Source: Umbilicaria muhlenbergii (Eukaryota; Ascomycota; Lecanoromycetes; Umbilicariales; Umbilicariaceae). Taken from it: DNA of 64,000 nt. The stretch covers positions 2,661,992 to 2,725,991 of the forward strand of contig KK106982.1 in the NCBI GenBank assembly GCA_000611775.1. The letters are read 5' to 3'. Both the position numbers and the translations under genes were made by a program. The stretch's first letter is position 1; the number at the start of each line of letters is the position of its first letter. This document shows positions 22,090 to 52,596 of the stretch, one piece after another. Under the pieces are notes generated by a model, which was not told where the DNA came from, searched no databases, and was given only the letters and a program-made list of their open reading frames with translations.

Positions 22090-22412
22090 TCCAACAAAGG
22101 GGTCGAAGGTGGCGTGAGAAAGTTTGGGTGGAAATCAATCCCTATTCATCTCAACTGAGTCATTGGAGAGAGCATCTGGATGCGGACGCTCTTTTAATAT
22201 TAGTACAGTGCATAACAATCCGGAGTTACCTACCATAGACAGAACAGTGTCATAATAAGAGTGCGCATACACATTCATTCCTGCTCATCAATCTTGTTGA
22301 ATTTATTCAACGGATTGACTTAAGTTCGATTGCTACGAAAAGTGGTGCGAATATATAGAGGGGGATGCCAAGCCACTAAGCAGGCGACAGTGAAAACTCA
22401 ACAAATCTCAGT
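22090..22412. other. Spacer between BBE oxidase gene and Tc1/mariner element
   Basis: This is the 3' flank of the oxidase gene. No feature was recognised apart from A/T-rich sequence that may hold the polyadenylation region. Confidence 0.4.
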
Positions 22413-25602: not shown

Positions 25603-25654
25603 ATAGTGTCGTACCATAGTGTCGTATTATAGTGTCATATCATAGTGTCATACT
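25603..25654. repeat. Four 13-bp tandem repeats at the edge of the mutated block
   Basis: ATAGTGTCGTACC, ATAGTGTCGTATT, ATAGTGTCATATC and ATAGTGTCATACT start at 25603, 25616, 25629 and 25642. The first two keep a CpG. The last two have CpA at the same place. Confidence 0.9.
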
Positions 25655-28357
25655 GTCATACTATATATATGGTGATCCTGACACAGCATTCCCCTTCTCA
25701 TGATGTCATCCCTGATGCCAATTGACTCTGAATCTGTCATCATAGACATCATCATGATGGCCTGATAAGTGATTGATCATGTAAGGTGAGGGTGTGAAAC
25801 TGTGCTAAGATAAGGCTGATCACATGCCTTGCTTAATTGTGATGATATCATGCCTGGCAGTAAGTTCCTCCTAACATAAACATTGAAATTAAAATGTTTA
25901 TCATAAGTTCAAAATGCTCTTCTCTTGTGTTTCTTCTTCATCATCTCTCTTACAACATGTCATCATACTTCTCACAGCTTTTTCACAGCTCATTGAGTGA
26001 CCTGATGACTTCATGATGTCATCCTCATTGCAGAGGTGTTCATCTCATGAAGAGAGCATCATGAAGCTTGCAGCTCACAGTTTAACATTCTTGCAGTGTC
26101 ATACTTCCTGTCATACATTATATGAATGCTAACATGATATATAGGCAATCAATAATTGAACTCTTGAACTCATGATCATGAACAACAGTGAAGATCTGTC
26201 TTCATCAGGGAAGCCTGTTGATCTCTGAGCTCAATGTGATGAGGAGGGCTCTGAGTCAGAGTCAATGAATAAAATTGTGATGATCAACACCTTCAGAAAG
26301 AGATGAGGAAACAGAGTGATAAAACTGACTGTTCAACACTTAAAGAGGGTCAGATGTTTATTTTTAAGTGACATCTTCAGCAGCAGTTTCTGCTCTGTGT
26401 GATGTCATAATGATACCTCACTGTCAGCATGCATGCAGCAGAGTCATCATCATGAGTGTGTGATTTAAGAGAACCTCAGTCACACACTGTCAGATACTGC
26501 TCACTGTGACTCTTGCAGAAAAGCTGAAGTTGATCAGTACTTCATATCACAGGTTAATTCAGCCTGTGCTTATTACACATCATTTCACAACCCTCATGAT
26601 TAATGCATGATGAAGTCTTTAATTATCACTGCCTCAGCCTCTGAGAGCTCTGATGTTGTTGTTTCATGTGTGTATACTTATGATGACAGAAGGAGTGATG
26701 ACACACTGTAAATTTACTTTTTTTAATCCTCTTTCATTTTGTTTCATTTAGTATGAATATGATGTACTTGTCATACTTATGATATTTTGTCATATTGTTG
26801 TATATACAACATTTTGTTATATTGCTGTACTGTTGCACTGTTGTACTATTGATATGTTAATTGTTGTATAATGCTTGACAGCTGATTAATTCCTCATGCT
26901 GTTACTTTTTACTGATCATTATTGACATTCTTCACACCTTTTATAATCACTTCTCAACATGAGTTTCTTGACTCTCTTGAGGTCAAAATGTGTTAATTCA
27001 GTAATTTCAAGAAGTTCATTTAAACTCTTGCTGTCTTGCTGAAGAGCACTGCTCATGCTCTCTGCATTCTTAATGCTCATTAATCTCATCATCATCAAGA
27101 GTACATTGAACTCTGTGAATGTCAGCATGTTGAGGAGATGAGGTCAAAGACTTCATCAAATAATAATAAAAAAGAGTTTAAGACAGCAGAAGACAAGTAG
27201 ATAAATAAAAATAATTTAATGCAACATTGATAAAGAGTTGAGTGCAAGATGTTGATCTCAGATTCATTTTAATCTTTAAATCTGAAATGAAATGCTTCTG
27301 TGCTTAAGTGTTCTCTGCAATGTGACATGTCTGTGATAATGTAATTCATGTAATAATTCTATAAGAGATCTTGTTATAACATCATAACATCATAACTCTT
27401 GTTATACTTATCATAAAGCACAAGCTCTGTTATAAAAGATCAAGTTAACAAAGCTGATAAAGTTTTCAGTTCTTAAGACTCATGACTTTTGTGACAGCTT
27501 CTCAATCAACCTCAAAGGATCACATTTTAAAACTCATGACTTTTGTGACAGCTTCTCAATTAACCTTGAAGGATCATGTTTTAAGACTCATGACTTTTGT
27601 GACAGCTTCTCAATCAATCTTGAAGAATCACATTTTAAAGCTCATCTGAATTTCTGTTTATCAGAATTATCAGCATGAAATTTTCACATTTTTGTCTTTA
27701 CATTGCAGATGAAGTGTGTTGACTTTCATGTGTCATCTCACACCTGATTTGTCAGCTTTCATTTGATGAGGTATTGAAGCCTGTCATCATGAATGCAATT
27801 ATTCACAATTGCCTCAACTTCTCACTCATCATCTTAATTGAGTAGTAGGTCTTTTCCTGCCAATGCAAGAGACACATGACATGTGTCTTAAAATAACTTC
27901 AATAGAGTGACATTGAATATGTTATAAATGTTTCAATCCTCTGAGAGGTCAAGTTCATATGATGATTGACTTATCACACATCATATCATGAATGAGTTGA
28001 GTTTTTTTCAATGCAGTTTCTTCATCTGCTTGTTCACTGACACATTTTTTTCATTAATCAGTATTAAATCACCTTCTTTGAATGTTATCTTCATTCAGTG
28101 CTGATTATAATAATTTACATATGTCTCATTGACCTGTTATAACTGCTTTTAAGTTGTTGCAATTTAATCTTGAAGCTGCTGTGCATCTGCATAAGATCTT
28201 ATTTGTTTATGTGAGTGCTGTATAAACAACTTACTTAAGCTTATCTGAGGGTCTCATTTTAAGTTAAGCTGAAAGAGGCTCTTTCTTGTAGCAGCATGTA
28301 TGAAGTTGTTGTATGAGAACTTCATGCAGAGTAAAAGCTTCACTCAGTCCTCTTGCT
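25655..28357. other. AT-rich, CpG-depleted decayed sequence, source unidentified
   Basis: This is dense in TGA, TCA, TCATGA and CATGATG words and almost free of CpG. No protein family could be recognised in any frame. It is probably decayed transposon sequence outside the outer Gypsy element. Confidence 0.5.
27478..27639. repeat. Three 54-bp tandem repeats
   Basis: Copies start at 27478, 27532 and 27586 (ACTCATGACTTTTGTGACAG ...). They differ only by C/T and G/A changes. Confidence 0.85.
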
Positions 28358-28654
28358 TGTAACAGGTGATGTCATAATGACTGAAGTGATATTATTATTC
28401 AATGAACTATAAGTATGATTCAATGAATTAAACAAGATTTAATGAATTATCATGATTATGTAACAACCTTTAGAGTTAAAATCAAGTGAGGAAATTAATA
28501 GTCATAAATTTAAGAGATTACATTTAATACATGAGTTGAGCATGAGCTCCTAACTATGAATCTACCTGTGATTATATAAATTATAGGAGACTCATGTGCT
28601 CAGTGTACTCATCATGCTCATCATGATGAGCAGGGTGAGCAACATGATGTAACA
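28358..28654 (-). repeat. 3' LTR of outer Gypsy element
   Basis: It is about 297 bp, starts TGTAACAGGTGATGTCATAA and ends near ATGTAACA. It aligns over most of its length with 49254-49560. Confidence 0.7.
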
Positions 28655-29020
28655 CTTCATGCTCATCATGCTTGACAGGTGAGCAAGGTGAGCAGTATCA
28701 TGTGTACACTCACACTGTGTACTTTGTTAATATTATAGTGCAGAAGCCTTAACACTAACTTTTCTCTTAAAATTTTCATCCTTAAAAACTTAAACATCTT
28801 CATGTCTTCTTCTTGAGTGCAAAAGAAACTCAACTCTTCTCAATGATGTCATAATCTTCTTCACAGGCTCAACCTTACTCCTTTCATTATGTGATCATGT
28901 AGATGATGTGTTGATGATGTGAAAAATTACTGTGTGAGTGATGATTCTGAAAAGTGTGTTATTTATATTCAGACTGAGAAGTCCTGTGATCTTTCTTTTA
29001 ATAGTGCTGACTGAGAAAAA

Positions 29021-29269
29021 ATGAAAGCTGAATTAACTTCTCTGAAGGAAAAGACTTCTGCTGCTGAGGAAATAATTGCTGAGGTGTCAGCTAAGTTAAT
29101 TCATTTGTGTAAACAGAAAAGACTGTTGCAACATTATCAAAAAGACTTTATCTCTCATGAGTTCATGAACATTGAAGAGCTGAAGGTGAAGAAGAGCAAG
29201 CAAGTGAAAACTTCAACTTCAACCTTTACTTCTGAACTTTTCAACTTCTCAGTGTTGAATGACCTCTGA
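29021..29269 (+). other. Antisense coiled-coil ORF next to the 3' LTR of the outer Gypsy element
   Basis: It is open for 82 codons on the strand opposite to pol, between integrase and the 3' LTR. It is rich in Glu/Lys/Ala heptads (a likely coiled coil) and ends in a Ser/Thr-rich tail. It is unusual for this block in being open over its whole length. The element is a fossil; no function is claimed. Confidence 0.5.
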
Positions 29270-32200
29270 GGTCTGAATTCTGTTGTTGAAATTGATGTAA
29301 TTTCATCACATAATGAGTAAGATTTTCTTCTGATTCTCATGTGTTTCCTGCTATGTCATAACCTTTTCACTTGATTAAGTAATAAAGCTCATCATCAACT
29401 TCTTGTTGATTTAGAATTTCCTTTATCTTGAACTCAGCATCTTAACTCTCTGAGTTGATCTCTGATGAATTTATTTACAATGATGTTTTCAGATCTGCTG
29501 ATTTGAGTAGAGATATATGAAATACTGAGTGTATTCACATGAATAATGAAAGTTTAAGTTCATAATTGACACTTTCTTTCTTCTTTGTAATCTGAAAAGG
29601 TTTTAACTTCTTGTGATTCAATTTATTGCTTGATCATGTTGTCTTAATGTTGTGCTGTAAAAGATATATTTTATCTTCTTCTTCAAGAGTAGGTTCTTTA
29701 TCTCTTTTCTTATTATGATATATATATTGCTGATCTTTCTGAGGTAAATTTTATGTTTCATTATAATTTCTTATGAAGGTCTTTTAATCAGTTCACTCAT
29801 ACTTTTACTTTCTGTGCTATGACTTTCAGCCCCCTCACTTCATTCATAGATGAGTTGAATTCATAATTAATGTAAAATGATGATACCTTCATGAATTCTG
29901 TTGTCACTGTGTTATAAGTTAACTGAGCTATCAGTAAGAGTTCTACTCAATTGATTTGTTGATAATTAACATAGCAGTGCAAGTACTGTTTCAATGTTTA
30001 ATTTAATCATTCAGTCTGCCTGTTCATCTGAGGATGATATGCTGTGAACAGCTTATGATGAATCTCTAGTTGATTCACTAATGATTTTCAAAACTTAAAA
30101 GTGAAGAGTTTATCTCTGTCTGAGATTATTTCTTTCAGCAGCTCATGATTGATTATTATGATTCTTAAAAACATGTATATTAATTCTTCTGCTGATGATG
30201 ATTTCTTATAAGGTATGAAGTATCTGTACTTCATAAGTTAATCTGTTATTATGAGGATAACATCATACAACACTTTCATCAGTGATTTCTTTGACTGTGA
30301 TAACTTTACTACAAAGTTCAATGTGATGCTTGATCATGATTGTGATGATGTTGATGATGACTTCAACAATTCATATGATTTATGTCACTCAGCTTTATTT
30401 TTTCAGCATGTGTCACATTTCTGAACAATCTCTTTGACTTTTTTCCTCATGCATGAGAAATAATATGTTTTAATGAGTCATTTCACTGTTTTGTTAAATT
30501 CCTGATGATCATTCATTTTGTTGAAATGACTTTCTTCTATCAGTGCTTCTCTCAAGCTGACTGAGACATAAATTAAGTTTTAAAAAAGTAAGAGACCTTC
30601 TTGCTCTTCAAAGCTTTTGTGATCATTAATATTCTGAAGAACCTGTTGTGCTAACTTGTCATTCTTCAACACTTTTCAGACTTGTTTCTCAAAAACATTG
30701 TCTTCAACTTTTATCATAAAGTTAACTTCTTAATTGTAAATTATCTTACCTTGCTCATCCTCCTGAAGGATAACTTAATTCATGATTGATTTCTCTTGCA
30801 GATAATCAGCTCATCTGCTGAAAGTATTCATTTTGATGTTCTCTGATCTCTTTTGATAATGAATTTTAAAGTTGTACTGTGATAATTCTTCTGACCAATG
30901 AACCTGTCTCTGATTTAAGATTTTCATTGTCATAAAGTATAACAGATTCTTATGATCTGAATATATCTGAACCTCATGCTTTAATCCTTTGAGATATACA
31001 TGTCATTGCTTGAATGCATTAACAATAATTAACAGCTTCTTGTCATATATCTCATAACTCTGTTCAGCACTTAAAAGCTTTCATGAGTAGTAAGTTACTG
31101 ATCTCAAACATTTTTTATCATTTAATTAATTAATGCATGCTTCTATAGCTCTGTCTGATGCATTCATCTCAAGCATAATAAGTTTCTCAGGGTTGAAACT
31201 CATGAGAATTAATTATGATGTGAAGTGCTTCTTTAGCTCTTCAAAGGATTTCTGTGCTTTAATAAATTAAATAAACTTTCAGTCTTTCTTCATCAACTCT
31301 GTTAGAGGTGCTGTGATTTTAAAATATTTCTCAATAAACTTCTTATAGAAGTTTGCAAAGCTTAGGAAGAATTGTACTTCCTTGATGCTTATCAAAACTG
31401 ATCATTCAATCATGAAATTAATTTTTTTCAAGTTCATCTGTAGATCTTCTGATGTGATGATAAATTTGAGGAATTGAACTTCCTTGGCATGAAAAAGACT
31501 TTTCTCAGACTTAATTCACAAGTTGATGTTCTTTAGCACTTGTAAGATCTTCTGAACATGTTCAACATGTTGCTCTCTCATTTTTGAGTACATCAGTATG
31601 TCATTGAGGTAGATGATCATGAACTGATTTAAATACTGTCACAAAATGTTGTTAATGAAAGCCTGAAAAGTTGCAGGGGTGTTGATTAATCTGAACAGCA
31701 TTATCAAGTACTTGTATAACTCTGAGCGTGTTTGAAACACTGTTTTTCATTCATCATCTTTTTTTATTCATATCTGGTTGAATGCTCCTGAGATGTTAAA
31801 CTTCATGAATCATTATATTCTCTGAAATCTGTTCTGCAGTTCTGACATGAGTGGCAGTGAGTAACTGTTTTTTATCATTATGTTGTTTAATACTTTATAA
31901 TCAACACACAACCTCAATGATCTGTCAGATTTTAAGACAAACAATATTAAATATCCTGCTGAAGACTGAGATTCTTGAATGAATCCTTTTCATAAGTTCT
32001 CCTTTAAATATTCTCACAATGTGTTTAACTTTTGAGGTGATAATGAGTATATGAGTTGCTTCATTAATTTGCATTCTTTCATGATCTTGATTTCATAATT
32101 TTATTCTTAATGTTTTAATAAGATGTCCTGTTCCTTTATTGCTGTAAACAACTCTTCAAAGTCTTTGTATTCTTTAGGGATAGATAACTTGATAATAAAG

Positions 32201-33055
32201 TCTCAGTCATCATTAACTTGCTTAGTTCACAGTATCTTTGCATCAGAATTTTTTTACTCCTCATGCATCTCTTCTGCTGTCATAGTGAAGACTTTCACTC
32301 CTTCAGGTGAGTGTAGAACTGAATATAACTTCATAAAAATACTGTCTTTAATGAAGTATATCTCATTCTCAGCTTAATTAATCATCAGATTGACCTGCTG
32401 AAGTTAAAGTATACTTAAAATTATGTCACTTCCTGACTGCTTCATAATGTTGAAACTGATTTTCTCTCAGTGTTGATTTATTCATATAAGTGTCAGAATG
32501 ATTTCTTCATTCACATGATCATTGTTGTGTTTTATAAGAGTTTCATTAAACCCTTGAAGTGAATAAGGATTTCACTTTTTCTGAATTTCTATCTCATTTA
32601 TTTTTGTAAACTGTGAATTCAAGAAATTCCTTGTACAGTCACTGTTGATTAACAGTTTGACTGAGTGACCTTTTACTTTAATTTAAACACAGAAGTTGTT
32701 CATGTCTTCTGTGATAATGATTGCTTTAGCAACTGCTTCTTTTGAAGATTTTAATTTAAGCATCTTCAGAAGCCTCTGACTTGAAGGGCTCTTTAGTTTT
32801 TTGAACTAAATGAGAGGAATCTCAAATTCTCTCTTACATATTTGAAGTCCTTTGAGTTAACTTTCTTGTTCAGGTATCATATCAGGTTTAACTTTAAATA
32901 TTCACTTCAAAGTTCTCAAACTTTCATACATAATTTTCTTGAGATGTGTGCTTCATCAAGAGTAACATACTCTTCTTTCATGATGAACTTTGAACCTTTT
33001 GATGATGTTTCTCTGAGTATATCTTGATAATTTGCATTCTTGACTTCATCTTTCT

Positions 33056-33290
33056 TAAGGTGACCGCCAGGACGGGAGTCCCGGTTCAGGATGAAGAGAT
33101 GAGATGAGATGAGATAAAATACAGGATCAAGCAGTAATCTTGTTCCTCAGAACTGAGATGAGAGTTCTGTTTCATCTCATCTCTTGATCCTGACAGGATC
33201 CTGGTCACGTGACTTTTTATATATGACTGTCAGTGGTTTTGAGACACGGGGAAAGGTTAATTCAGACACAGGGAAATTAATACATTGTAA
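33056..33290. mobile_element. Decayed copy of the GC-rich hAT-like element
   Basis: It starts TAAGGTGACCGCCAGGACGG and matches the element at 50991 for over 200 bp. The first approximately 35 bp keep their GC content. Beyond that GGGACGGGAC has become GAGATGAGAT. The 3' end and target duplication could not be fixed; 33290 is approximate. Confidence 0.65.
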
Positions 33291-34760
33291 CAATTCATTA
33301 TAATGATCTAGACTATCAATTTATTTTAATGACTTTAATCTTGACTGTTTTCTTTGCAGCTGCCTCTTGTTACTCAAGACATATCTTAGTCTTGCCCTTG
33401 AGCTGATTGATGTTTTCATGAGTATGAAACTTAAGTTTAATGATTTATCATGCTGACCTGATAGAATTGGTAGTTCATTTAAGTTTTCAGTTACATCAGT
33501 AACATTCTGTAGCTTTGCAGGTGACCTCATATGATTAACATTAAATGATAATGCTTAAAGCTCATCATTATTCAGCTCATTCACATCATAATTCTCATTC
33601 ATTAACTCCTCAGTATCACTGCTTCTTATTAGACAGACAACAATATATTACATTAAGTAACATACTTGAATACTTCAATGACTCATTGTTTTTCTTTTTT
33701 ATGTGTTGACATATATCCTCCTTCATCTTTATGTCTGACATTTGATGCATCACCTTCATCATGTGATAAAGAAATGTGAGTAAGACTCTCAGCATCATTC
33801 ATATTCACTCACTGTGTTTCACATTCTTGATCATTAGAGGTGAGTTCATCTGCAGAAGAAGATCAATCATCTTGAGTATATTATTATATACCTTCCTCAT
33901 GTGCCACCATATCATGAATGTGAGTAGTGTCACATTTTTTGATTATCATGATGTCAGATATAGTGTCTGAGTTGAAGTGACTCTGATGATAAGTAACAAC
34001 ATCTCATGTCATGAAAAAAAGGCGCTTCACATCTACATCAACTACTGATATAGCAAGAATGTCCTTTGTCATTTGTAATAAGACAGGCTTACTGATCTTC
34101 AACTGTTTTCATAGAAGAAGAATGTTGTCATGCTTTAATTTTATTTCATTAAAGTATCATGAGGCTTTATTTCCTTGATAATTTTTCATCTCTCTTGATC
34201 TCTGAAGCGTGGAACTTCTTGAAGTTAAGAGAACACTCTTCAGAGATTTCTTCATCATGTTAAAAGATGTGAGCTGTCATGACTGATACTGAACAGTCTT
34301 CTGTTCTTGATAATTTGCTTCATAATAATCAAGGAACTCTTGTTGATACTGTGCATAATCCTCAAAGTCTCATTCAGCGCCCTGCAGTAGTGATTAGAAT
34401 ATAAAGTTTAAAATCATTACAATAAATCATTAGAAATGTTGACTGCTTACCTTGAACAAATCAAGCTTTAAAGAAGAATCAAGGCAAGCACTTACTGTAA
34501 ACAACACTCCTCACTCATCATATGTTCACTCATAGTATGCTGAAAGTTTATTCTTTGCTGCTGCAATAACCTCCTGCAGACTAAAAGATCATTTGAGTTT
34601 AAACTTTCAAACTTCTTGACGCTGTCACTTTAAATGATTGAAAAGTTCATTATAAGTGATTTAAGTGCAAAAAATGCTTAATTGATCTGTCACTCTCAGC
34701 GCATCTGTAAAGTTTTAAAATGATTATAATAAACTGATGAGATACCTGACCTGCTCTCAT

Positions 34761-35215
34761 TGTAAGTGTACTACCGTGAGGTAATATCTTAACTAAGAAA
34801 TTATGAAGCTATGTGACAATAGTGACTTAAACTTATAATTGATGGTTCACAATAGTATGATATTGCTAGTAGGTAGAGAATTATTGTTAAGAAAAAAAGT
34901 GAGACATGCTCTGACCTCATAATTTATCTCTTCTGAAGTTAGCCTGTCTGAGGAAGATCTCATGAAGCAATCACCTCAGTGAAGCTGTCTTCATGAGGTG
35001 TTCATTGCTGAATCACACCTTCATGAGGTGTCACCAATGATGTTAACTTTTTTAATCACTTTCATGAAGTGTCAGGAGTGATGTCTATTAGCTGAGCTTC
35101 CTCATGAGATTAATTCACTAGTGAAAGTTACCTTCACAAGGCTGCACTGTTGTTAAGCATAATCTTTCTTATTTTGAACTAGCACCTGATGAGTTCTGTA
35201 CATTGAATGCTCACA
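34761..35215 (-). repeat. 3' LTR of inner Gypsy element
   Basis: It is 455 bp, TGTAAGTGTACTACCG ... GCTCACA. Two further copies of the same LTR lie at 41510-41964 and 43079-43533. Confidence 0.85.
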
Positions 35216-35503
35216 TTGCCCCCCCCCTTCAAAGGCTCATGCCCTCATGAGTATGATGACATTCACAGTTGCAAGCCTTCACTGAGAAGTGCTTCACAAT
35301 GCACTGATAACAGTTAAAAAAACAACCCTGTAGGTCAGAAAAAAAATTTTAAAATCATAAAAAAAATATGTTGTGAAGCTCATTAAAACTCAGTGAGAAA
35401 AAGAGTCTCCCTTCACAAGATGTTTGTGAAGTTATGACTGATTTATACACTGACTCAGTGTTCATGATGATTATTACTCATTTGTGAGCCTGTTCAGCTG
35501 TTC

Positions 35504-36381
35504 ATGAGGTCATTCAGATTCACTTTGTCAAGCATCATGAATGACTTCATGCAGGTCATAAGGTCAGAGTTTTCACTGTCAACAACCTTCACAACTTCAA
35601 CCCTCTCACCCTCATCAGGTAGGTTCATGATAATGATTCTTGTGATGCACTCTTGCAGTGTTTGCCCCTGTGATGCTTGCCTTCATGGTGCTTTTTCACT
35701 AACAGTGATACAGCTCATCATGTTTCACATCAGTCATACAGTCAATGTTCTCAGGCAAATCATTTATGATTCTTGTTTGTTTCCTCTGTTTGTGCAGGCT
35801 GATGATGAGGCCTCATGCAATCATACCTTCCATGAGGTCACCCTTCACAGGGAGTCTCAGCTTCATGATTATGTTGTTTCACAACAGCTCATTCAGCTCA
35901 CTGATTATGAGCAAGATCATGAGGTGATCTGTAAGTGATCTTCATGACTGCTCTTCATGAGAACACTTCGTGACTGATCTTCATGATAATAATCATGAAG
36001 ACTGAGGACATCCCTTCTCAGGCTTGTGAGTCATGTGTTGCTGTCACTGCAGGTCACAGCCTCAATCATTTTAAGGATTGTTTTCTCTCCCCTCATGTCA
36101 TCAAGTGCGCAGAGTGCCTTCAGCACATCAGCAAAGTCTGCATCTTCCTGTGTATGACTTTATGATATGTTTTCATGAGATGCTTTTGTTAACTGTTTGC
36201 AGCTTCATCTTCATCACCTTCAGCTTCATCATCTCTCTCATGAGAACTGAGTTCACCTTCACTCTTGCCTCTGCCCCTGGCCAACCCTGACCCTGAGGGT
36301 TGCAAGGAGGCGCGCAAGGCGTGTAAGCAGAAGAAATGTCAAGTGAGCAAGGCTCACAAAGCTGCTGCAGCTGCTGCCTAG
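35504..36381 (+). other. Antisense Cys-rich ORF region next to the 3' LTR of the inner Gypsy element
   Basis: On the strand opposite to pol, between integrase and the polypurine tract, lie open stretches (35504-35938, 36078-36290) and a basic, Ala-rich end at 36381. CxxC pairs (CPCDAC, KCAEC) and a Cys/Lys-rich tail hint at a former zinc-binding protein. It occupies the same slot as 29021-29269 in the outer element. It is fossil and broken; no function is claimed. Confidence 0.4.
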
Positions 36382-41509: not shown

Positions 41510-41964
41510 TGTAAGTGTACTACTGTGAGGTAATATTTTAACTAAGGAATTATGAAGCTATGTGACAATAGTGACTTAAGCTTATAGTTGATGGTTTGCA
41601 ATAGTATGATATTGCTAATAGGTAGAGAATTATTGTTAAGAAAGAAAGTGAGACATGCTTTGATCTCATAATTTATCTCTTCTGAAGTTAACCTGCCTGA
41701 GGAAGATCTCATGAAGCAGTCACCTCAGTGAAACTGTCTTCACAAGGTGTTCATTGCTGAATCACACCTCTGTGAGATGTCATCAATGATGTTAACTCCT
41801 TTAACCACTTTCATGAAGTGCTGAGAGTGATGTCTATTGACTGAGCTCCCTCATGAGGTTGATTAATTAATGAAAGTTAACTTCACAAGGCTGTGCTGTT
41901 GTTAAGCATAATCTTTCTTATTCTGAACTAGCACCTGATGAGTTCTGTACACTGAATGCTCACA
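41510..41964 (-). repeat. 5' LTR of inner Gypsy element
   Basis: It is 455 bp, followed on the right by the target duplication CTCAT. Confidence 0.85.
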
Positions 41965-42384
41965 CTCATTCAATGTCATTGAGTATCAGAACTCATTATA
42001 TAAACTTCTTTTTTTTTATTCATTCTCTGCTGAACTCACGCATCTCATATGCTCATTCAAGCATGAAGAAAGAACTGTTTCATCTTGTTACAACATCTTC
42101 AATTAAGCTCTTCTGCAAATGAGGGGATGTATTAATCTGAGTGACTTTATATCTCTCAAGTCATTGTGATGATGAGTTGACTGCAATGACTAATGCACGG
42201 ACCTGAACGCAAAGTTAATTGATCATTATAATATATCATTAGAAAGATTAAAACCTTTTGAAATGTAAAATTAAAGTCTTTATCCTTCTCATGCACCTCT
42301 TTTAATTGACTCAGTGTTTTGACATTTCACTTCTTTGTAGGATTGTCATTGTTTGCTGACACTTTAAGTGAGTGTAGTAGTGCG

Positions 42385-43533
42385 TTGACTTTGATGATAA
42401 TCCTTCACTTCATTTCTTATTTAAGTCAGAAGTTCATCTGACCTGTGAAGGTACTCATCATCAGATTCACTGCTTAACTTGTGACAATTCATTTAATTCA
42501 TTCATGTGTTATACACCTGATTATCATGATTTTTTAAAAGAGACTTTAAAAAGTTCTTCTGACTTTCTCAGATATCTTTCAAGCTCTTTTCTTCATGATG
42601 TGTGACTCATCACTCTGCAATTTTGTAGTTCAGATATCAATCTGACTCTTCAAGGCAGAGCTTCACGGGAAGGTGCTCAATTTAATGTACATACTGTTAA
42701 AAGTGAGGGTAGTCCTTCATACAGTAGAGGTCTTCATCTTTGACTCACTTTTCATAGCAGGCGCATTTCAGAGTTGAAGATAAATCTGATGTAAATCATC
42801 TGTGAGTTTTAAGCTCAGCCTGCCTAGTACGTTCCTTCTCACTCATGAGTTGAATCTTCACAAGTTGAATTTTGGTATTCATCATGATGAACTCCTCAGA
42901 GAATGTAGAAGTGATGTGTCATGACTGAGAATCAAGAATGATAAAATCATCATTAACTGTTGCTTGTGAAGTTTCTGAAGTGATTTGTGAAACTGTTGTG
43001 AAGGCTGATTGAGGAGTTTATGAGTTTTCAATCATTCTTGCCAGACAGCATCCTTACAATGAATTGAAGCAATAAAACTGTAAGCGTACTACTGTGAGGT
43101 AATATCTTAACTAAGGAATTATGAAGCTATGTGACAATAATGACTTAAGCTTATAGTTGGTGGTTCACAATAGTATGATATTGCTAGTAGGTAGAGAATT
43201 ATTGTTAAGAAAGAAAGTGAGACATGTTTTGACCTCATAATATATCTCTTCTGAAGTTAACCTGCCTGAGGAAAATCTCATGAAGCAGTCACCTCAGTGA
43301 AGCTGCCTTCATGAGGTGTTCATTGCTGAATCACACCTTCATGAGGTGTCACCAATGATGTTAACTTCTTTAATCACTTTCATGAAGTGCTGAGAGTGAT
43401 GTTTATTGGCTGAGCTCCCTCATGAGGTTGATTCACTAGTGAAAGTTATCTTCACAAGGCTGTGCTGTTGTTAAATATAATTTTTCTTATTCTGAACTAG
43501 CACCTGATGAGTTTTGTATATTACATGCTCACA
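42385..43533 (-). mobile_element. Truncated second copy of the inner Gypsy family (LTR plus gag end)
   Basis: This fossil fragment has a 455-bp LTR (43079-43533) and about 0.7 kb of adjoining gag region, paralleling 40.8-41.96 kb. It is cut off near 42385. Confidence 0.75.
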
Positions 43534-43944
43534 ATGTATCCTCACCTGCCTGCAGTTTATGGTTGTGAAGCAGGTTAACATGAAACACATCATGAATATA
43601 AAGTTTCTTCAGTAGTTTCAGCTGATAAGCAACATTCTTAATCTTCTTTATAATCTGAAAGGGTTCATAACACTGTTAATTCAGCTTTCATGAGAATCAC
43701 TTCAGGGTTATGTTCTTAACCTTTAATCAAATTAATTGTTCAACTTTATAAGTCACATCAAGGTGAAACTGATTGTAATGCCTGACTTGATACTCTTGAG
43801 ACTTCACAAGAGCTCTGCAGACTTTTATTTAAATCTTATGAAGGCACTTCACAAGCTGCTCAGCTTCAGTGGTAGTTCTCTTAACTGCAAAGTACTTCAT
43901 GAGTTTCTCTGTGATGAGCATATCTGATCTAGGTATGAAGTCAT
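43534..43944 (-). mobile_element. Fragment of the inner Gypsy family (integrase end)
   Basis: This is a fossil fragment of about 0.4 kb that parallels 36957-37350 of the inner element. It directly abuts the LTR at 43533, so the truncated copy seems to have landed in it. Confidence 0.7.
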
Positions 43945-45032
43945 TGTTAAAAGCATGATAAGATTAAGCAACTTACATTAACTTCTGATTAAGCTTAGCG
44001 CGTTCAGCTAATTCTGCAACACTCACATATGTAGTTTTGCTCATCACTTAATGACTCTTTAAAATTGAAAGACATGTGTCATGCAGTTGACAGTATTCAT
44101 GTCTTCATTTCAATGAATCTTTCATTTTCATAGCAGTGATGTCAGCTTCATGCACAGTGTTTCATTGTTCAAGGCATTGTCAGCTGTGATAGCAAGGAGC
44201 TTATTCAGAAGCTCATAATTATCAAGCACATTCATTATCATCTTTGTCATATTCTTCCCTGTATGCTTGCTGTGAAGAGAAGAGAACTCAAGAAGAACCT
44301 CATGATAATCTCAGTTATCATTTATGAAGTAATCAGTGATGCTAAGGAATGCAAGGTTATTTGAACTTGTTCAATAATCAAGTGTTAAAGAAACTTTCAT
44401 CCTTGATCTTAATTTTATTAACACAGTTTATTTAAGTTCCTTTGCTCACTTCTTGACAAGGTGAGAGAACTTGGTTTAATGAGAAGCCTCAACATCAAGT
44501 TGAAGAAAATCAAGCAAGTGTAAAAATGAGGGATGTTCAACTGAGCAGAAAGACATGTTGAAGTCAAGAATTATTTAAATAAGTTGATTCTCAAAGGCTT
44601 CTTGTGTAAATCTGCTAAACGCAGGCTTAGTGAGTACAGAGTTGATGAACTGAAGTCATATCATTAGAATAGATCATTATAACAGAGGTTTAAAGAAGTC
44701 AGTACCTTTTGCAATAACTGAGGAAGAATCATCTGCCCTGTTTGATTCACCTCACAATTTTTGATGTTGATATGCTTTGTCATATCATTGCTCCCTGCAT
44801 TATTAAGATTAAGATGTTTCAGAACTTTCTCATAAAGTTTACAGATAACAGCAGGCTTCTCAGTTTTAATTTCAGCAGCCTCATGATATGATGCTCACAG
44901 CAGAGCCTTTCACTTTATATTATCTTAAAGAATAAGCCTGTGTCTTATCACCTTCTTGAGTGTATCCTGACCTCATTTCATTCTCTCTCACCACTCTTTG
45001 AATTCATCATGAAACTCAGAGGTTCAGAGAAT
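43945..45032 (-). mobile_element. hAT transposase remnant
   Basis: Read on the minus strand, the right part (44.7-45.0 kb) holds a BED-type zinc finger: VICKL.EKVLKHLNLNNAGS followed by NDMTKHINIKNCE. Near 44.2 kb lies the hAT core FSSLHSKHTGKN and LLAITADNALNNETL. Several positions where Trp is expected read TGA. It is a plain class II transposon relic, truncated at both sides by the Gypsy fragment and the tandem-array element. Confidence 0.7.
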
Positions 45033-45034
45033 TA

Positions 45035-48000
45035 ACCTTAATTCTCACCCTGTACTCAGGTGGGTACAGTAAGGCTGACAGAGTATATTGTATCACAGTC
45101 TCAGTACTTCTCAGCCATTTCAGCCTTACTGTACTCAACTCCCTGTAATTGCTTGTACCCAACCTTAACTTTTGACAGAGATGTTGAATAAAGAAGCTTG
45201 AAAGAAGAAAGTTATAAAGCAGTTTAAGTTCTTAAATATGCAGTTCTGCCTGTCTTTTTATCTTAAGAACTCAGAAAGTTATTAATTATGTAAATAAGTC
45301 TCAAGTTTTGATGTTCTGTCTTGATTTTCAGGGTCTTCTCACTATTCAGAGTCAGAACTTCGCACTTAAAGTCTTACAACACATAGAACTTTAACACCTC
45401 AGCAGTTATGACAAAATGTTATATGAGAGAATTGTAGAGATCAATAAACTGAGTAGTTCTTACACTGAAAGAATTGTCATAACTATAGAAGTCATTACTA
45501 ACCTTAATTCTCACCCTGTACCCAGGTGGGTACAGTAAGGCTGACAGAGTATATTATATCACAGTCTCAGTACTTCTCAGCCATTTCAGCCTTACTGTAC
45601 CCAACCCCCTGTAATTGCTTGTACCCAACCTTAACTGTTGACAGAGATGTTGAATAAAGAAGCTTGAAAGAAGAAAGTCATAAAGCAGTCTGAGTTCTTA
45701 AATATGCAGTTCTGCCTGTCTTTCTATCTTAAGAACTCAGAAAGTTATTAATTATGTAAATAAATCTCAAGTTTTGATGTTCTGTCTTGATTTTCAGGGT
45801 CTTCTCACTATTCAGAGTCAGAACTTCACACTTAAAGTCTTACAACACATAGAACTTTAACACCTCAGCAGTTATGACAAAATGTTATATGAGAGAATTG
45901 TAGAGATCAATAAACTGAGTAGTTCTTACACTGAAAGAATTGTCATAACTATAGAAGTCATTACTAACCTTAATTCTCACCCTGTACCCAGGTGGGTACA
46001 GTAAGGCTGACAGAGTATATTATATCACAGTCTCAGTACTTCTCAGCCATTTCAGCCTTACTGTACCCAACCCCCTGTAATTGCTTGTACCCAACCTTAA
46101 CTGTTGACAGAGATGTTGAATAAAGAAGCTTGAAAGAAGAAAGTTATAAAACAGTCTGAGTTCTTAAATATGCAGTTCTGCCTGTCTTTTTATCTTAAGA
46201 ACTCAGAAAGTTATTAATTATGTAAATAAATCTCAAGTTTTGATGTTCTGTCTTGATTTTCAGGGTCTTCTCACTATTCAGAGTCAGAACTTCACACTTA
46301 AAGTCTTACAACACATAGAACTTTAACACCTCAGCAGTTATGACAAAATGTTATATGAGAGAATTGTAGAGATCAATAAACTGAGTAGTTCTTACACTGA
46401 AAGAATTGTCATAACTATAGAAGTCATTACTAACCTTAATTCTCACCCTGTACCCAGGTGGGTACAGTAAGGCTGACAGAGTATATTAAATCACAGTCTC
46501 AGTACTTCTCAGCCATTTCAGCCTTACTGTACCCAACCCCCTGTAATTGCTTGTACCCAACCTTAACTGTTGACAGAGATGTTGAATAAAGAAGCTTGAA
46601 AGAAGAAAGTTATAAAGCAGTCTGAGTTCTTAAATATGCAGTTCTGCCTGTCTTTTTATCTTAAGAACTCAGAAAGTTATTAATTATGTAAATAAATCTC
46701 AAGTTTTGATGTTCTGTCTTGATTTTCAGGGTCTTCTCACTATTCAGAGTCAGAACTTCACACTTAAAGTCTTACAACACATAGAACTTTAACACCTCAG
46801 CAGTTATGACAAAATGTTATATGAGAGAATTGTAGAGATCAATAAACTGAGTAGTTCTTACACTGAAAGAATTGTCATAACTATAGAAGTCATTACTAAC
46901 CTTAATTCTCACCCTGTACCCAGGTGGGTACAGTAAGGCTGACAGAGTATATTATATCACAGTCTCAGTACTTCTCAGCCATTTCAGCCTTACTGTACCC
47001 AACCCCCTGTAATTGCTTGTACCCAACCTTAACTGTTGACAGAGATGTTGAATAAAGAAGCTTGAAAGAAGAAAGTTATAAAGCAGTCTGAGTTCTTAAA
47101 TATGCAGTTCTGCCTGTCTTTTTATCTTAAGAACTCAGAAAGTTATTAATTATGTAAATAAATCTCAAGTTTTGATGTTCTGTCTTGATTTTCAGGGTCT
47201 TCTCACTATTCAGAGTCAGAACTTCACACTTAAAGTCTTACAACACATAGAACTTTAACACCTCAGCAGTTATGACAAAATGTTATATGAGAGAATTGTA
47301 GAGATCAATAAACTGAGTAGTTCTTACACTGAAAGAATTGTCATAACTATAGAAGTCATTACTAACCTTAATTCTCACCCTGTACCCAGGTGGGTACAGT
47401 AAGGCTGACAGAGTATATTATATCACAGTCTCAGTACTTCTCAGCCATTTCAGCCTTACTGTACCCAACCCCCTGTAATTGCTTGTACCCAACCTTAACT
47501 GTTGACAGAGATGTTGAATAAAGAAGCTTGAAAGAAGAAAGTTATAAAGCAGTCTGAGTTCTTAAATATGCAGTTCTGCCTGTCTTTTTATCTTAAGAAC
47601 TCAGAAAGTTATTAATTATGTAAATAAATCTCAAGTTTTGATGTTCTGTCTTGATTTTCAGGGTCTTCTCACTATTCAGAGTCAGAACTTCACACTTAAA
47701 GTCTTACAACACATAGAACTTTAACACCTCAGCAGTTATGACAAAATGTTATATGAGAGAATTGTAGAGATCAATAAACTGAGTAGTTCTTACACTGAAA
47801 GAATTGTCATAACTATAGAAGTCATTACTAACCTTAATTCTCACCCTGTACCCAGGTGGGTACAGTAAGGCTGACAGAGTATATTATATCACAGTCTCAG
47901 TACTTCTCAGCCATTTCAGCCTTACTGTACCCAACCCCCTGTAATTGCTTGTACCCAACCTTAACTGTTGACAGAGATGTTGAATAAAGAAGCTTGAAAG

Positions 48001-48620
48001 AAGAAAGTTATAAAGCAGTCTGAGTTCTTAAATATGCAGTTCTGCCTGTCTTTTTATCTTAAGAACTCAGAAAGTTATTAATTATGTAAATAAATCTCAA
48101 GTTTTGATGTTCTGTCTTGATTTTCAGGGTCTTCTCACTATTCAGAGTCAGAACTTCACACTTAAAGTCTTACAACACATAGAACTTTAACACCTCAGCA
48201 GTTATGACAAAATGTTATATGAGAGAATTGTAGAGATCAATAAACTGAGTAGTTCTTACACTGAAAGAATTGTCATAACTATAGAAGTCATTACTAACCT
48301 TAATTCTCACCCTGTACCCAGGTGGGTACAGTAAGGCTGACAGAGTATATTATATCACAGTCTCAGTACTTCTCAGCCATTTCAGCCTTACTGTACCCAA
48401 CACAGGCAGAACTGCATATTTAAGAACTCAGACTGCTTTATAACTTTCTTCTTTCAAGCTTCTTTATTCAACATCTCTGTCAAAAGTTAAGGTTGGGTAC
48501 AAGCAATTACAGGGGGTTGAGTACAGTAAGGCTGAAATGGCTGAGAAGTACTGAAACTGTGATACAATATACTCTGTCAGCCTTACTGTACCCACCTGGG
48601 TACAGGGTGAGAATTAAGGT
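45035..48620. mobile_element. TA-flanked element with 219-bp inverted ends and a 7-copy 466-bp tandem array
   Basis: The left end (45035-45253) and right end (48402-48620) are inverted copies of 219 bp, ACCTTAATTCTCACCC ... GCAGTTCTGCCTGT. Both are flanked by TA (45033-34, 48621-22), suggesting a Tc1/mariner-type target. Copies of a 466-bp unit start at 45033, 45499, 45965, 46431, 46897, 47363 and 47829. An eighth, partial copy (48295-48401) runs into the inverted end. Internal units are nearly identical. Each unit has an internal hairpin (GGGTACAGTAAGGCTGA / TCAGCCTTACTGTACCC). No coding frame is seen. Confidence 0.85.
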
Positions 48621-49253
48621 TAGTAAGAAATATAATGAGAATAAGCAGAGCGTGGCAGAGTGTTCAGCTTTAAAGATTTCATCTTTCATCACATTCTTCA
48701 GTCTCTTATAATATTGTGCTGTCAAAGCAATATCATCTCAATTCATATGTGAGGTGAGTCTTTGAAAGTTTATCATGTACATAACAGCTGCTTCTTTCTG
48801 TTGAATGTTATAAATTTCTCACTTTGCTGTTCTTTCTTCATTCACTGTCTTGAACATTATTCTTATCTGTTTCTTGAACTTCTTTAACTCATGAAAGATC
48901 TCATTAGTTGAATCATCTCAATCTTCACTCTTATTGTCAAGGTAATCTCAGAGGATAGGTTCAAATCAGTTTAAAGCATTCAACCTCAGAAATGAGAAGG
49001 TGAACAACACTTTCTTTGATTTCAAAATAAATAAAGACTTGTTGAACTGCAGGTACATATCAAGCTGAGTGAAAAATAAATTTAACATTCTTCTCTCATC
49101 AAGAAACTTATCTGACAATAAAATCTTAACTCAGACTACTTTATCAGAAGAGTGTTCAGTGACTGATTCTTCTCTGTCAGAAGACTTGAACATCTTAAGA
49201 TTAATAAATCAATTCATTACATGACTGATACTCTGTAAATGTGATGCTCAAAG

Positions 49254-49560
49254 TGTAACAGGTGATGTCATAATGACTGAAGTAATATTATCATTCAACA
49301 AACTATAAGTATGATTCAATGAACTAGACAAGGTTCAATGAATTATATGATTAACAATGATCTTAAGGTTAAGATCAAGTGAGGGAATTAGTAATCATAA
49401 ACTTAAGAGATTGCATTTAATACATGAATTGAGCATGAACTTTTAACTATGAATCTACCTGTGATTATATAAACTATAAGAGACTCATGTGATTGAGGTG
49501 ATCATAATGATTAAACTCTTGATCACTCTGAACAGCTTGATCACCCTGATTAATGTTACA
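49254..49560 (-). repeat. 5' LTR of outer Gypsy element
   Basis: It is about 307 bp, TGTAACAGGTGATGTCATAA ... GATTAATGTTACA, with matching TGTAACA/TGTTACA termini. Confidence 0.75.
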
Positions 49561-50156
49561 GCTAGTTATTTCACTTCATAAGCAGACTTAAAACTGTTGC
49601 AAGAGGTGAGTTATTTGAACTTAAAAAAGTACAAAGAGGAAAGACAGTACAAAGGCTGCAGTTGCAACATAAGTATTAAAATACTCAGACATGTTAATCC
49701 TGATCTAGTTTAGCATCTCAATTTAACACTTAAGCATAATCAGAGCTCATGTTGTAACAATTGAGGTGATCAAGGTGTTCAAGCTCTCACTCACCTCAAT
49801 CACTTCAATCAGTATCAGCTGTTTACTGTAAGCATGTACTTTTAAGTACTGTTCTGACTAAGTCATAACACAACTGTGCAGATGATTATGTGCAATCAAC
49901 ATTTTTTTACTTACTTATTTACTTATTTACCTGCTTGCTTGCTTGCCTGCCTGCTGGCGTGCACCCGGCGGTGAGGATTGTGATGATGGTGATGATGTTG
50001 ATGATTTGATGATGATGATGAGTGTTTTTTTTTTTGATTTTCATCAAGTTCTCAGTGCACAAGTCACTTTAACTTTAATCTGTGCACTCATATAATAAAA
50101 TGATTAAGCTTGATTTCTACATAATCATGCCTCACTTTAATAATTATTTCACTTAT
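49561..50156. other. AT-rich spacer with a tetranucleotide tract and a small GC islet
   Basis: The spacer lies between the outer Gypsy and the pogo-type element. At 49908-49955 TTAC/TTAT units grade into CTGC/TTGC units, then a roughly 25-bp GC islet (GGCGTGCACCCGGCGGTGAG) keeps several CpGs in otherwise CpG-free sequence. No gene is present. Confidence 0.6.
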
Positions 50157-50249
50157 TAGTGCTGATCACCTCAACATCATGATCATTTTAACATCACATA
50201 TTTGACTTCTTTCTAATTGAAAATTATATTATACAGTCACATAATTATT

Positions 50250-52596
50250 TACTACTTTAATCATGCTTCTTGAGCCTTAACTACTTTCTTAAGTTTTTTT
50301 CAAATGATTTTAAAAGTCTTTGCAAGCTTTTTATTAAGCACTGCTTGCTTTTATTTTTTCTTATTTTTTATCTTAATTAAGGCTCTCTTCTGCTTCTTCA
50401 CCTCATTATTCATTCATGTGACTGTTTTACACTTGATCTCTTTCACAGTGATTACTCTCTTCTTTTGAGTTACATTTTCCTTTAAAACCTTCCTCTTAAC
50501 CTTAGCAACTGCCTCTTGACATGTAATTAAAAGGTCTCACTCTGTAATCTGTAGTGTATGAGCAGAAGTAATAGATCCTTTGATAAATCATTTCACATGA
50601 ACTTGAAAGTCTTTATCAATGACTTGAAGCTTCTTCATTATTGTTTAAAGTTTCTTTTCATGAACAATAAGCTCCTGTATGATGTGAGGAGTTCACACTG
50701 AAGGTGAAACAAAAGAAGAAAGAGAGTTAACTGATTTATTTAAGGCCTGAATTGCCTCAATTTTGATGAGAACCACATTTGAATTATATGATATAAGATC
50801 AGTGTTCTTTCATGCTAAAAGGATCAAGGATTTGATGAAAGTTGAAGCTCATATTACTTGAAATGAAGTCAGAAAATTCAACTTGCTGAACTTCATATTG
50901 CTTACTCTAACTGCTGCATCAATGACCTCTGTATGATGGTGTTTGAATAACTGAAAAATGCTCACATTTAATGACTGAGTTAAATGTGTATAGGGTGACC
51001 GCCGGGACGGGAGTCCCGGTCCGGGATGAAGGGACGGGACGGGACGGGACGGGATATGGGACCAAGCAGTAGTCTCATCCCTCAGGACTGAGATGAAAGT
51101 CCTGTCCCGTCCCGTCCTGTGGTCCCGGCGGGATCCCGGTCACGTGACTCCTTATATGACTGTCAGTGGTTTTGGGACACGGAAAAGGGAAAAACGGCTT
51201 CCAAAACGGCCTCAACGACGGCCTTGAAAAACGGCTTCCAAAACGGCTTCAACGACGGCCTCAAAGAACGGCTTCCAAAACGGCTTCAACAACGGCCTCA
51301 AAGAACGGCCTCAAAAAACGGCTTTCAAAATGTGACTGAGAGTCAGTGAACTGATTGTTACATGATGTTGAGATTCAAATTAATAATTCTAACGATTCAA
51401 TGTAACGATCTATGATGAAATGTAAACTGATGACTCCTTAGATGACATCTAACTTAATGTGATACTGTATCAAGCCTCTTTAGGTTAAGCTTAGGTTATT
51501 GTCATCATGACATATCAATAGTGCTGGGACAACGGGACTATTCCCGTCCCGTCCAGTCAACGGGACTGGGACTGGACTGAAAATTCACCACTCGGACGGG
51601 ACGGGACTGGGACGGGACAGGGACTAAAAATCTGATCCTGTCCCGTCCCAACGGCCACCGTAAATGTGTAGAATGAGGTGAAAGCTGAAATAAAAGAATT
51701 CTCTTTCATTTAGCAAATTGCCAGAACTCATATGTCATATGAGAGTCAAAGCTGTCTAGAATAAGCATTCAATGATCTTCAATTTGAGTCCTCTTGATGT
51801 GTTTATCAAAGTGCTTCAGCCACTGAACAGCCAGATTGTCATTGGAATAATCAGTTGAAGAAGTGACCAATAGAATATCCTCATTCAGATTATTAACCCC
51901 TCATTTCTCAAGGATATTGACGTCTTGAATAATAAGCATGAGGGGTATATCACCTCCTACTTCATTGATGATTTCACATGATGTAAAGTAGTCATGATTG
52001 TCTGAATCTGTCAAGAGAAGAGGCTTGTTTGTCTCAGCTGTTATGATCTAATGTGTCTTTCTCACCTCAACTTTAAACCCTGTTTTCTTCATATTTCATG
52101 TGTCTTGATCTGTCACTCTCAGACTCTCCTTTGCATTTCTATAGGCAGTGAAGTAGGCTGAAATCACCTCTGTATTGTGACTGGCTTTTCATACAGCTGA
52201 TAAGGGCTTTTGCTTTCATTTTATGTATTGAGGGTTGTGATCAAGGAATCATGCAGCCCAATGCTGACTCACTGTAGGAGGTGTAGAACCGTTGATAACA
52301 GCCTCAGCAAGTAGAAAATTTGCAGCGCCTCTAAGCAATTCAGTAGTGAGAGACATATTGACACTGTCTAAGTGTTCAATATAATCACGTATGGCCTGTT
52401 CTTGCTCATCGGTCAGGGCTTTGCAGGTGGGTTTTCAAGTGGATTTTGAAGCCTGCCCTTTTAGGCGTCTTTGAAGGCGACGAGGTTCTACCCCATGGGC
52501 TTTGGCAGCAGCAGCAGCGGAGGCAAAATCACCATTGTGATAGGCTTGAATGGCCTCTTCTACGTGTGATTCAGTAGTATCATAAGCCTCAGACAT
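50250..52596 (-). pseudogene. pogo/Fot1 transposase pseudogene
   Basis: The coding region of the element at 50159-52687 is interrupted by the nested hAT-like element and by many stops, mostly TGA at expected Trp sites. It contained a CENP-B-type HTH, a DDE_1 superfamily catalytic domain and a basic C-terminus. Its first 250 bp (52350-52596) are GC-normal; the rest is AT-rich. The 3' limit is approximate. Confidence 0.75.
50991..51662. mobile_element. Non-autonomous hAT-like element, GC-rich and young
   Basis: This is a 672-bp element with a perfect 8-bp target duplication AATGTGTA (50983-50990 and 51663-51670), diagnostic of hAT-type insertion. Inverted ends match as TA(G/C)GGTG(A/G)CCG, two mismatches, then GGGACGGGA. 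Both termini are built of GGGAC/GTCCC repeats. Inside is a 37-bp minisatellite (copies of AACGGCTTCC from 51193, 51230, 51267). There is no transposase. CpGs are intact although the flanks are almost CpG-free. A decayed relative lies at 33056. Confidence 0.88.

Follow-up and report, generated by a model that had tools for sequence, protein, structure and literature searches.

The window, a 64,000-nucleotide stretch of contig KK106982.1 of Umbilicaria muhlenbergii (GCA_000611775.1), contains at positions 25625-52350 an AT-rich block of dispersed repeats, with a retrotransposon whose reverse transcriptase is broken and a satellite array (Table 1). By dinucleotide count the block has a GC content of 0.354 and observed/expected ratios of 0.10 for CpG, 0.64 for CC, 0.58 for GG, 1.41 for CA, 1.44 for TG and 0.64 for TA. 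The left flank has a GC content of 0.515 and ratios of 0.86 (CpG), 1.05 (CC) and 0.75 (TA), and CpG stands at 0.75 in the right flank; the loss of CpG is far greater in the block than in either. The first-pass annotation had described this composition correctly, CpG nearly gone, CC and GG depleted, CA and TG raised, and the 120 bases it had singled out (30301-30420) hold no CG, CC or GG, 12 CA, 16 TG and 6 TA. It had also expected standard RIP indices to overlook the block, and for the most part they do: TpA/ApT reaches 0.89 in two of twelve block windows, the substrate index is at most 1.03 in one, and a single window passes both. The two windows with RIP-index signal overlap the 466-bp satellite array. 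The palindrome TCATGA, taken in that annotation for a relic of CpG, is truly in excess, with 130 occurrences in the block where dinucleotide frequencies predict 28.7, and the 37-kb flanks hold 15; at 40 of its 55 places in a 30-copy alignment the columns resemble former CpG.

Table 1. Features of the block and a control repeat in the window (positions as in the window; o/e, observed/expected)
Feature	Position	Strand	Remarks
Control, ~110-bp high-copy repeat	22284-22404	+	all five CpGs kept in 7/7 copies read, of ~50
Hypermutated AT-rich core	25625-49950	.	encloses satellite array; six non-satellite pieces with CpG o/e 0.00-0.10, CCA/CTA depleted
Dispersed repeat (query part 1-2358)	26000-28357	.	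other near-full copies 85-88% identity, several chromosomes
Family 2, second dispersed repeat	28357-31000	.	other copies 85-91% identity; 6 copies aligned
Family 1 retrotransposon copy, broken reverse transcriptase	36500-41964	-	strand from reverse transcriptase fragment
Reverse transcriptase fragment, RVT_1	39058-39558	-	PF00078, E 3.9e-17
Second partial copy	42386-43533	.	92.9% identical to 40817-41964; 74 transitions, 8 transversions
Satellite array, 7.2 units of 466 bp, 99% alike	45033-48401	+	next to no CpG; one strand keeps CC
Right margin, partly affected	49950-52350	.	CpG o/e 0.53; last 2.4 kb
CGG-bearing tandem array in right margin	51190-51330		

The strongly affected core is put at about 25.6-49.95 kb because the satellite array and the last 2.4 kb are limits. 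Each of its six non-satellite pieces has one CGA or none, and CpG o/e is 0.00 across 25625-28357. In the satellite window 46001-48000 CC stands at 1.10 but GG at 0.48; arrays related to this satellite sit near contig ends. With the satellite set aside, order-1 O/E in the block is 0.03 for CGA, 0.16 for CCA, 0.37 for CTA and 0.72 for CAA, against 0.95, 1.00, 0.89 and 1.12 in the flanks. The block-to-flank ratio for CGG, CGC and CGT is 0.02-0.06, so that CpG without an A at the second 3' position (+2) is nearly lost as well.

What kind of mutation leaves such DNA behind? The matches listed include another 36 long copies of family 1, 86-92% identical, and 30 copies were aligned over 38000-42000 (3965 columns); the copy in the block may reach upstream of 36500. 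Ancestral states were set by column class, and since copies of one family share history the context cells are not independent. Variation is confined to C/T or A/G in 1374 columns and is of another kind in 141, pairwise differences comprise 161283 transitions and 4601 transversions, and changes private to one copy are C>T/G>A in 281 cases, T>C/A>G in 101 and transversions in 22. That the repeats were poor in CpG and CC from the start, with no mutator at work, has next to no chance of being right: the same columns carry CG, TG and CA across copies, the variation is nearly all C/T or A/G, and no point in support of such a start was found. Directional C-to-T hypermutation of repeats outside the CpA context, as proposed in the first pass, is the part of the earlier reading that stands.

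Which cytosines are hit? By the first 3' base (+1) alone, family 1 follows the order CpG >= CpC > CpT > CpA, with CpA least mutated at 0.099. The +2 A is a determinant as strong as the +1 base. With A at +2 the fraction of T is 0.85 (0.80-0.89) for CGA, 0.88 (0.84-0.90) for CCA, 0.50 (0.42-0.58) for CTA and 0.24 (0.19-0.30) for CAA; with C or T there it is 0.30 for CGC, 0.36 for CGT, 0.22 for CCC, 0.28 for CCT, 0.09 for CTC, 0.14 for CTT, 0.05 for CAC and 0.04 for CAT. The effect is present in the five least mutated copies too, and is repeated in the adjoining 1.5 kb of 26 of the 30 copies (L031, L039, L042 and L049, where the match is short or absent, were dropped). Family 2, with six copies, gives CTA 0.47 against 0.09-0.14, CAA 0.24 against 0.02-0.07, CCA 0.71 (7 sites) against 0.33, and CGA 0.68 against CGC 0.20 and CGT 0.50. 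C-to-T change is thus almost certainly governed by the two 3' bases, as 5'-C-N-A-3' with N = G or C > T > A. Bases on the 5' side have weak effects, with log odds not exceeding 0.48 (at -1), compared with about 2.5 for the +1 and +2 bases, and within CpG the values are TCG 0.18, GCG 0.66 and ACG 0.63. APOBEC/AID-like cytidine deaminases read 5' bases, which makes the action of such an enzyme on the repeats very unlikely, even if it would fit mutations that lack strand clustering.

The rule was applied to DNA outside the alignment by simulating mutation of gene-like flank DNA with all 16 measured family 1 rates and comparing the product with an unaligned stretch of the block, 25625-34700, ended there because the retrotransposon may extend into 34700-36400. 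The Kullback-Leibler (KL) divergence is 0.013 for the 16 measured rates, 0.044 for the +1 base only, 0.137 for uniform C-to-T, 0.202 for CpG only, 0.281 for CpG plus CpC and 0.405 for CpA, and half-against-half noise amounts to 0.015-0.017. The measured rates hence reproduce this unaligned part of the block within sampling noise, and the CpG-plus-CpC, CpG-only and CpA rules fail. In an earlier simulation three of the 16 rates (C-N-G) had been chosen manually and lower than measured, since the G there often becomes A, and the rival rules likewise ran on hand-chosen rates; the best rule ranked the same in both. The first pass had named the dinucleotides CpG and CpC as the targets. They are the two most mutated contexts by the +1 base alone, but CCT and CCC mutate at a third to a quarter of the rate of CCA, CTA lies above CCT and far above CTC, and the divergence of a rule with equal rates at CpG and CpC is 0.281-0.328, on 25625-34700 worse than that of uniform mutation; this rule has been given up as highly improbable.

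Classical RIP at CpA would account for the near-exclusive transitions, the affected repeats and the RID-like gene described below, but is barely credible here. The first pass had stated that a majority of transitions at CpA, or CpG/CpC loss no greater than in the flanks, would speak against its reading; CpA turned out to be the least mutated context, and the flanks have lost far less CpG than the block. The CpA rule diverges by 0.384-0.405. Stop codons give the same answer. In 149 of 150 scored reverse transcriptase matches they number 682 TGA, 15 TAG and 106 TAA (85% TGA), not the TAA and TAG of classical RIP. On the coding strand CGA and TGG would both become TGA, hence the excess of this stop in the dead reverse transcriptases.

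Could CpG simply decay? Slow spontaneous deamination at CpG kept methylated by a DNMT5-like maintenance enzyme, with no active mutator, agrees with the DNMT5-like gene in the genome, with mutations that do not form strand runs and with CpG as the most depleted dinucleotide. However, symmetric CpG methylation predicts roughly equal strands, and strand choice at former CpG tracks the +2 base (GCGA 0.92, TCGC 0.09); CCA and CTA are heavily mutated as well, and CpG loss alone halts at a GC content of 0.451, against 0.328-0.340 in the test pieces. We consider it improbable. Two independent processes, general CpG methylation and deamination plus a separate C-N-A mutator, would explain the near loss of CGG, CGC and CGT; the genome has several methyltransferases, and a fourfold rise of the CpG rates, in the simulation with three hand-set rates, improved the fit from 0.0113 to 0.0082. 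Such a pair has some plausibility but is on balance unlikely: one enzyme with a graded preference is enough, because CGA resembles CCA and the +2 A acts within CpG too.

Targeting of repeats by the mutator is very likely. In 3' flanks of 29 copies elsewhere, 74 of 87 pieces have GC below 0.42, with O/E of 0.15 for CGA, 0.25 for CCA, 0.38 for CTA and 0.73 for CAA; in the other 13 the same trinucleotides stand at 0.80-0.99. Gene loci read in the genome sample are spared and AT-rich DNA beside repeats is affected. Among 30 copy flanks CpG is back to normal within 1.2 kb in five (L023, L027, L035, L041, L044) and rises then falls again in two; the other 23 are CpG-poor across nearly all 1.5 kb, bar single bins, and weigh against repeat targeting to the extent that this DNA is not itself repeat. 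Sparing of a short repeat was seen in one family, the ~110-bp control, and so at a single repeat length. The near-identical tandem satellite copies keep one-strand CC and some CCA, so the process does not run its full course in all long repeats. A duplicate of the DNMT5-like gene (L019/L020, 79% identity over 947 bp), used to see whether duplicated genes are hit, has little C-to-T excess, 68 against 53 in reverse, with changes at 23 of 129 CNA sites and 45 of 340 others.

How does this compare with known systems? As in Neurospora and Pezizomycotina RIP, C-to-T change affects longer repeats and DNA near their edges, gene loci are spared, and RID-like and DIM-2-like genes are present. The N. crassa preference is CpA>CpT>CpG>CpC, and in Trichoderma reesei CpA~CpG and CpT>CpC (PMC5496416); MATE repeats of Aspergillus nidulans have CpG and CpA changes (PMC2621366). 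Unlike in Neurospora, CpA ranks last here by +1 base and the highest rates need A at +2. Neurospora RIP clusters are one-stranded in 91.9% of cases (PMC7296669), whereas strand clustering was absent here: private neighbours at 50-400 bases share a strand in 0.43-0.46 of cases where 0.50-0.52 would be expected, a difference of no more than about 1.2 sd, and no distance-dependent strand correlation was seen at CpG. Many rounds of mutation could blur one-strand clusters. In Microbotryum (Pucciniomycotina) RIP-like hypermutation changes the C of TpCpG in retrotransposons, TCG to TTG (PMC5381629). A CpG-containing trinucleotide in retrotransposons is the target here too, but the change falls mostly on the opposite strand, at the C of CpGpA (CGA to TGA, so TCG to TCA), the C of TCG itself being at 0.18, and CCA and CTA are targets as well. 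A CpG-type signature is known from Tuber melanosporum, Microbotryum, rusts and Rhizoctonia AG8, where the main nonsense codon of AG8 is TGA (PMC4352252; PMC4014442). Strong mutation of CpG is shared with these systems; CCA, CTA and the +2 A effect are not, and the term CpC has no occurrence in the accessible part of PMC4352252. Zymoseptoria tritici has a Dim2-dependent mitotic mutator that causes C-to-T change at CpA outside premeiotic RIP, and its 5mCG favours CGA and CGC with dim2, and slightly CGA and CGG without it (PMC8016269); a DIM-2-type enzyme is common to both fungi, but the Z. tritici mutator hits CpA. Plant CMT2, which methylates heterochromatin, has CAA and CTA among its preferred contexts in A. 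thaliana, and in one species CCA belongs to the contexts with the least methylation (PMC5221884); the +2 A preference is alike, in plants and for methylation rather than mutation. We did not find the CNA rule in the accessible literature on mutation and methylation context, and the C-N-A target differs from the RIP-like contexts described there; Clutterbuck 2011 and Horns 2012 could hold a prior report.

Which enzyme could be responsible? The first pass had suggested looking for methyltransferase genes, and four matches in the genome include RID-like, DIM-2-like and DNMT5-like types. The RID-like gene (L018) has PF00145 in both exons, its frame runs on across one GT-AG intron as judged by eye, and no BAH domain was found in it; by its motifs it is a putative RID. 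Involvement of a methyltransferase in the hypermutation is probable, and naming any one enzyme as the mutator is tentative. In the mechanism we propose, a RID-like or DIM-2-like cytosine-5 methyltransferase would make the initial choice by the two 3' bases, 5'-C-N-A-3', and deamination of C or 5mC would then fix T. CpG with another +2 base would be consumed too, at a slower pace. Because favoured sites are exhausted first, old copies would become CpG-free, CCA-poor and rich in TGA and TCA. On this reading the block consists of dead dispersed repeats that were damaged by a C-to-T mutator aimed at repeats.

Overall, we favour with reasonable confidence a RIP-like, methyltransferase-directed and repeat-directed C-to-T hypermutation with C-N-A context. 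The chances seem about even that a genome-defence methyltransferase has moved from CpA to a C-N-A readout and kills repeats by TGA nonsense, its mutations accumulating perhaps site by site, possibly in mitosis, and not in one-strand premeiotic sweeps. The rule predicts TGA-rich nonsense, TCATGA palindromes and, at CpG, a choice of strand that depends on the +2 base. To the common RIP indices, which assume change from CpA to TpA, a CNA mutator would look like a lack of RIP, and genomes may be misclassified for that reason. U. muhlenbergii would also offer a natural variant with which to ask where in RID or DIM-2 the sequence context is recognised.

Which cytosines have been lost from the AT-rich block at 25625-52350 (GC 0.354)? 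Dinucleotide counts put CpG at 0.10 of expectation, CC at 0.64, GG at 0.58 and TA at 0.64, with CA at 1.41 and TG at 1.44, as the first-pass annotation had described; both flanks are near normal. Its 120-base example, 30301-30420, holds no CG, CC or GG on recount, and TCATGA, said to be abundant, is found 130 times in the block against 28.7 expected from dinucleotides. Standard RIP indices do overlook the block: windows passing both thresholds number 1 of 12 and those passing one or both 2 of 12, and these two overlap a satellite array. The hypermutation signature is real, strong and quantitatively simple.

The block is also rich in repeats, as had been claimed: a retrotransposon (family 1), two further dispersed repeats and the satellite array (see table), from a genome comparison of the block outside 31000-36400, 43600-45032 and 48402-49950. 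At the right margin, 51190-51330 is a tandem array whose 12/37-bp unit carries CGG, in surroundings with reduced CGA and CCA and an overall CpG of 0.53. Beside the block, in DNA mildly low in GC and CpG, an uninterrupted frame of 236 aa (22970-23680) matches the DDE_3 transposase domain, of Tc1/mariner-like type; it has one other match (L002, 75% identity).

Features of the window and methyltransferase loci of the genome
Feature	Coordinates	Description
Window	C2:2661992-2725991	genome 34.79 Mb, seven contigs
Short high-copy repeat, roughly 110 bp	22284-22404	about fifty copies, 83-97% identity
Two dispersed repeats	26000-31000	from comparison with the genome
Family 1 retrotransposon	38000-42000	reverse transcriptase broken; 86-92% identity to 36 further long copies among the matches listed
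Satellite array	45033-48401	466-bp unit, 99% alike; relatives near contig ends and at internal sites
DIM-2-like gene		PF00145; BAH match just below Pfam cut-off
RID-like gene		PF00145; one apparent GT-AG intron
DNMT5-like gene		PF00145
Broken DNMT5-like copy (L020)	G000:C1:6527376-6527678	79% identity to the DNMT5-like gene over 947 bp

The context rule comes from 30 family-1 loci, cut out from 41 listed matches, whose alignment has 1374 columns varying by C/T or A/G alone and 141 varying otherwise. Inferred CpG sites read CA or TG in 94% of cells, CG in 3.4% and TA in 2.7%. By the base 3' of the cytosine (+1), the share of inferred C cells now T is 0.41 for CpC, 0.175 for CpT and 0.099 for CpA. 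With A at +2 it reaches 0.85 in CGA, 0.88 in CCA, 0.50 in CTA and 0.24 in CAA, each far above the same +1 base with C or T at +2. The +2 base is as strong a determinant as the +1 base; in a logistic model both have maximal effects of about 2.5 log odds, with 5' bases at most 0.48. The proposed non-CpA context therefore stands, CpA being the least affected by +1 base, and CpG/CpC as the whole rule does not, because A at +2 weighs equally. Fractions with G at +2 are intermediate, in part because that G itself often becomes A; in copies where it is intact they are 0.00 for CCG (104 cells), 0.015 for CAG (4891) and 0.40 for CGG (180). The five copies with the fewest mutations show the +2 A effect again, as do an adjoining 1.5 kb of 26 of the 30 and six copies of a second dispersed family, where CCA has 7 sites only and CGT reaches 0.50 against 0.68 for CGA.

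Does this rule, C to T at C-N-A, account for DNA from which it was not derived? Gene-like flank DNA was mutated with family-1 rates until its GC equalled that of 25625-34700, outside the aligned stretch. The 16 measured rates gave a trinucleotide distance of 0.013 to the real sequence (half-against-half noise 0.015-0.017), rates lacking +2 gave 0.044 and uniform C-to-T 0.137. A CpG-only rule gave 0.202, with GC halting at 0.451, the CpG+CpC rule of the first-pass annotation 0.281 and the classical CpA rule 0.405. For 25625-36400 the measured rates gave 0.015, falling to 0.011 with C-N-G rates lowered by hand and to 0.008 with faster CpG. A whole-block run, partly circular, again ranked the C-N-A rule first.

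The signature extends beyond the window. The 3' flanks of 29 outside family-1 copies yielded 87 pieces; in the 74 with GC under 0.42, CGA stands at 0.15, CCA at 0.25, CTA at 0.38 and CAA at 0.73, and in the 13 GC-normal ones C-N-A contexts are 0.80-0.99. Among 150 reverse-transcriptase matches scored of 877 candidates, 149 contain stops: 682 TGA, 15 TAG and 106 TAA, counts in which related copies share stops. CGA and TGG both yield TGA under the C-N-A rule, hence the excess; after classical RIP one would expect a preference for TAA and TAG instead. TGA excess by itself does not tell a C-N-A from a CpG-only process. The sole match lacking an internal stop (G000:C3:3998714-3999376) has an open frame of 544 aa.

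Is the process directed at repeats? By trinucleotide contexts, the gene loci examined are spared; C-N-A contexts are 0.86-1.18 at methyltransferase loci and short-repeat surroundings. Of 30 copy flanks, five regain a normal CpG level within 1.2 kb (L023, L027, L035, L041, L044), two show a rise and a renewed drop (L043, L049) and 23 stay low over 1.5 kb, save single bins, in DNA that may itself be repeat. The roughly 110-bp repeat may be a short non-autonomous element, and some of its copies lie in pairs a few hundred bases from each other; in the 7 copies read of about fifty, all five CpGs are intact. In all seven contigs, relatives of the satellite lie no more than about 25 kb from an end, and others lie inside chromosomes. 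The array is nearly CpG-free but retains CC on one strand and some CCA; its spread may thus postdate the CpG loss, or the array may escape the later stage. This retention counts against a simple repeat-directed picture, as does the DNMT5-like duplicate, with its little C-to-T excess.

What would the mutator be? The proposed search for methyltransferase genes returned four PF00145 matches in the genome; the RID-, DIM-2- and DNMT5-like labels are putative and follow domains and motifs typical of these classes. Introns, gene content and the methyltransferases together suggest a filamentous fungus. At former CpG sites the mutated strand follows the +2 A (GCGA 0.92 against TCGC 0.09); this strand choice favours an enzyme that selects its target over spontaneous loss after symmetric CpG methylation. 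No strand clustering was found among private mutations of family-1 copies, whereas 91.9% of N. crassa RIP mutation clusters are reported as one-strand (PMC7296669). The pattern may be blurred by many rounds, or hits may arrive singly; single hits might also be the mode of the mitotic mutator of Z. tritici, which depends on dim2 and in which 5mCG favours CGA and CGC (PMC8016269).

A partial search of the literature on mutation and methylation context found no description of the C-N-A rule. The +1 orders reported for N. crassa and T. reesei (PMC5496416) differ from the order here, and the TpCpG target given for Microbotryum corresponds to the CGA mutated here when read on the other strand (PMC5381629). 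CpA is reported as less preferred in a nematode-trapping fungus (PMC3828140), so shifts off CpA have precedent; a survey of ten genomes names CpA, CpT and CpG signatures, and the term CpC is absent from its available text (PMC4352252). In Umbilicaria muhlenbergii, an enzyme would pick its target cytosine, strand included, partly by the A at +2; plant CMT2 is an example of a methyltransferase pathway able to favour +2 A (PMC5221884).
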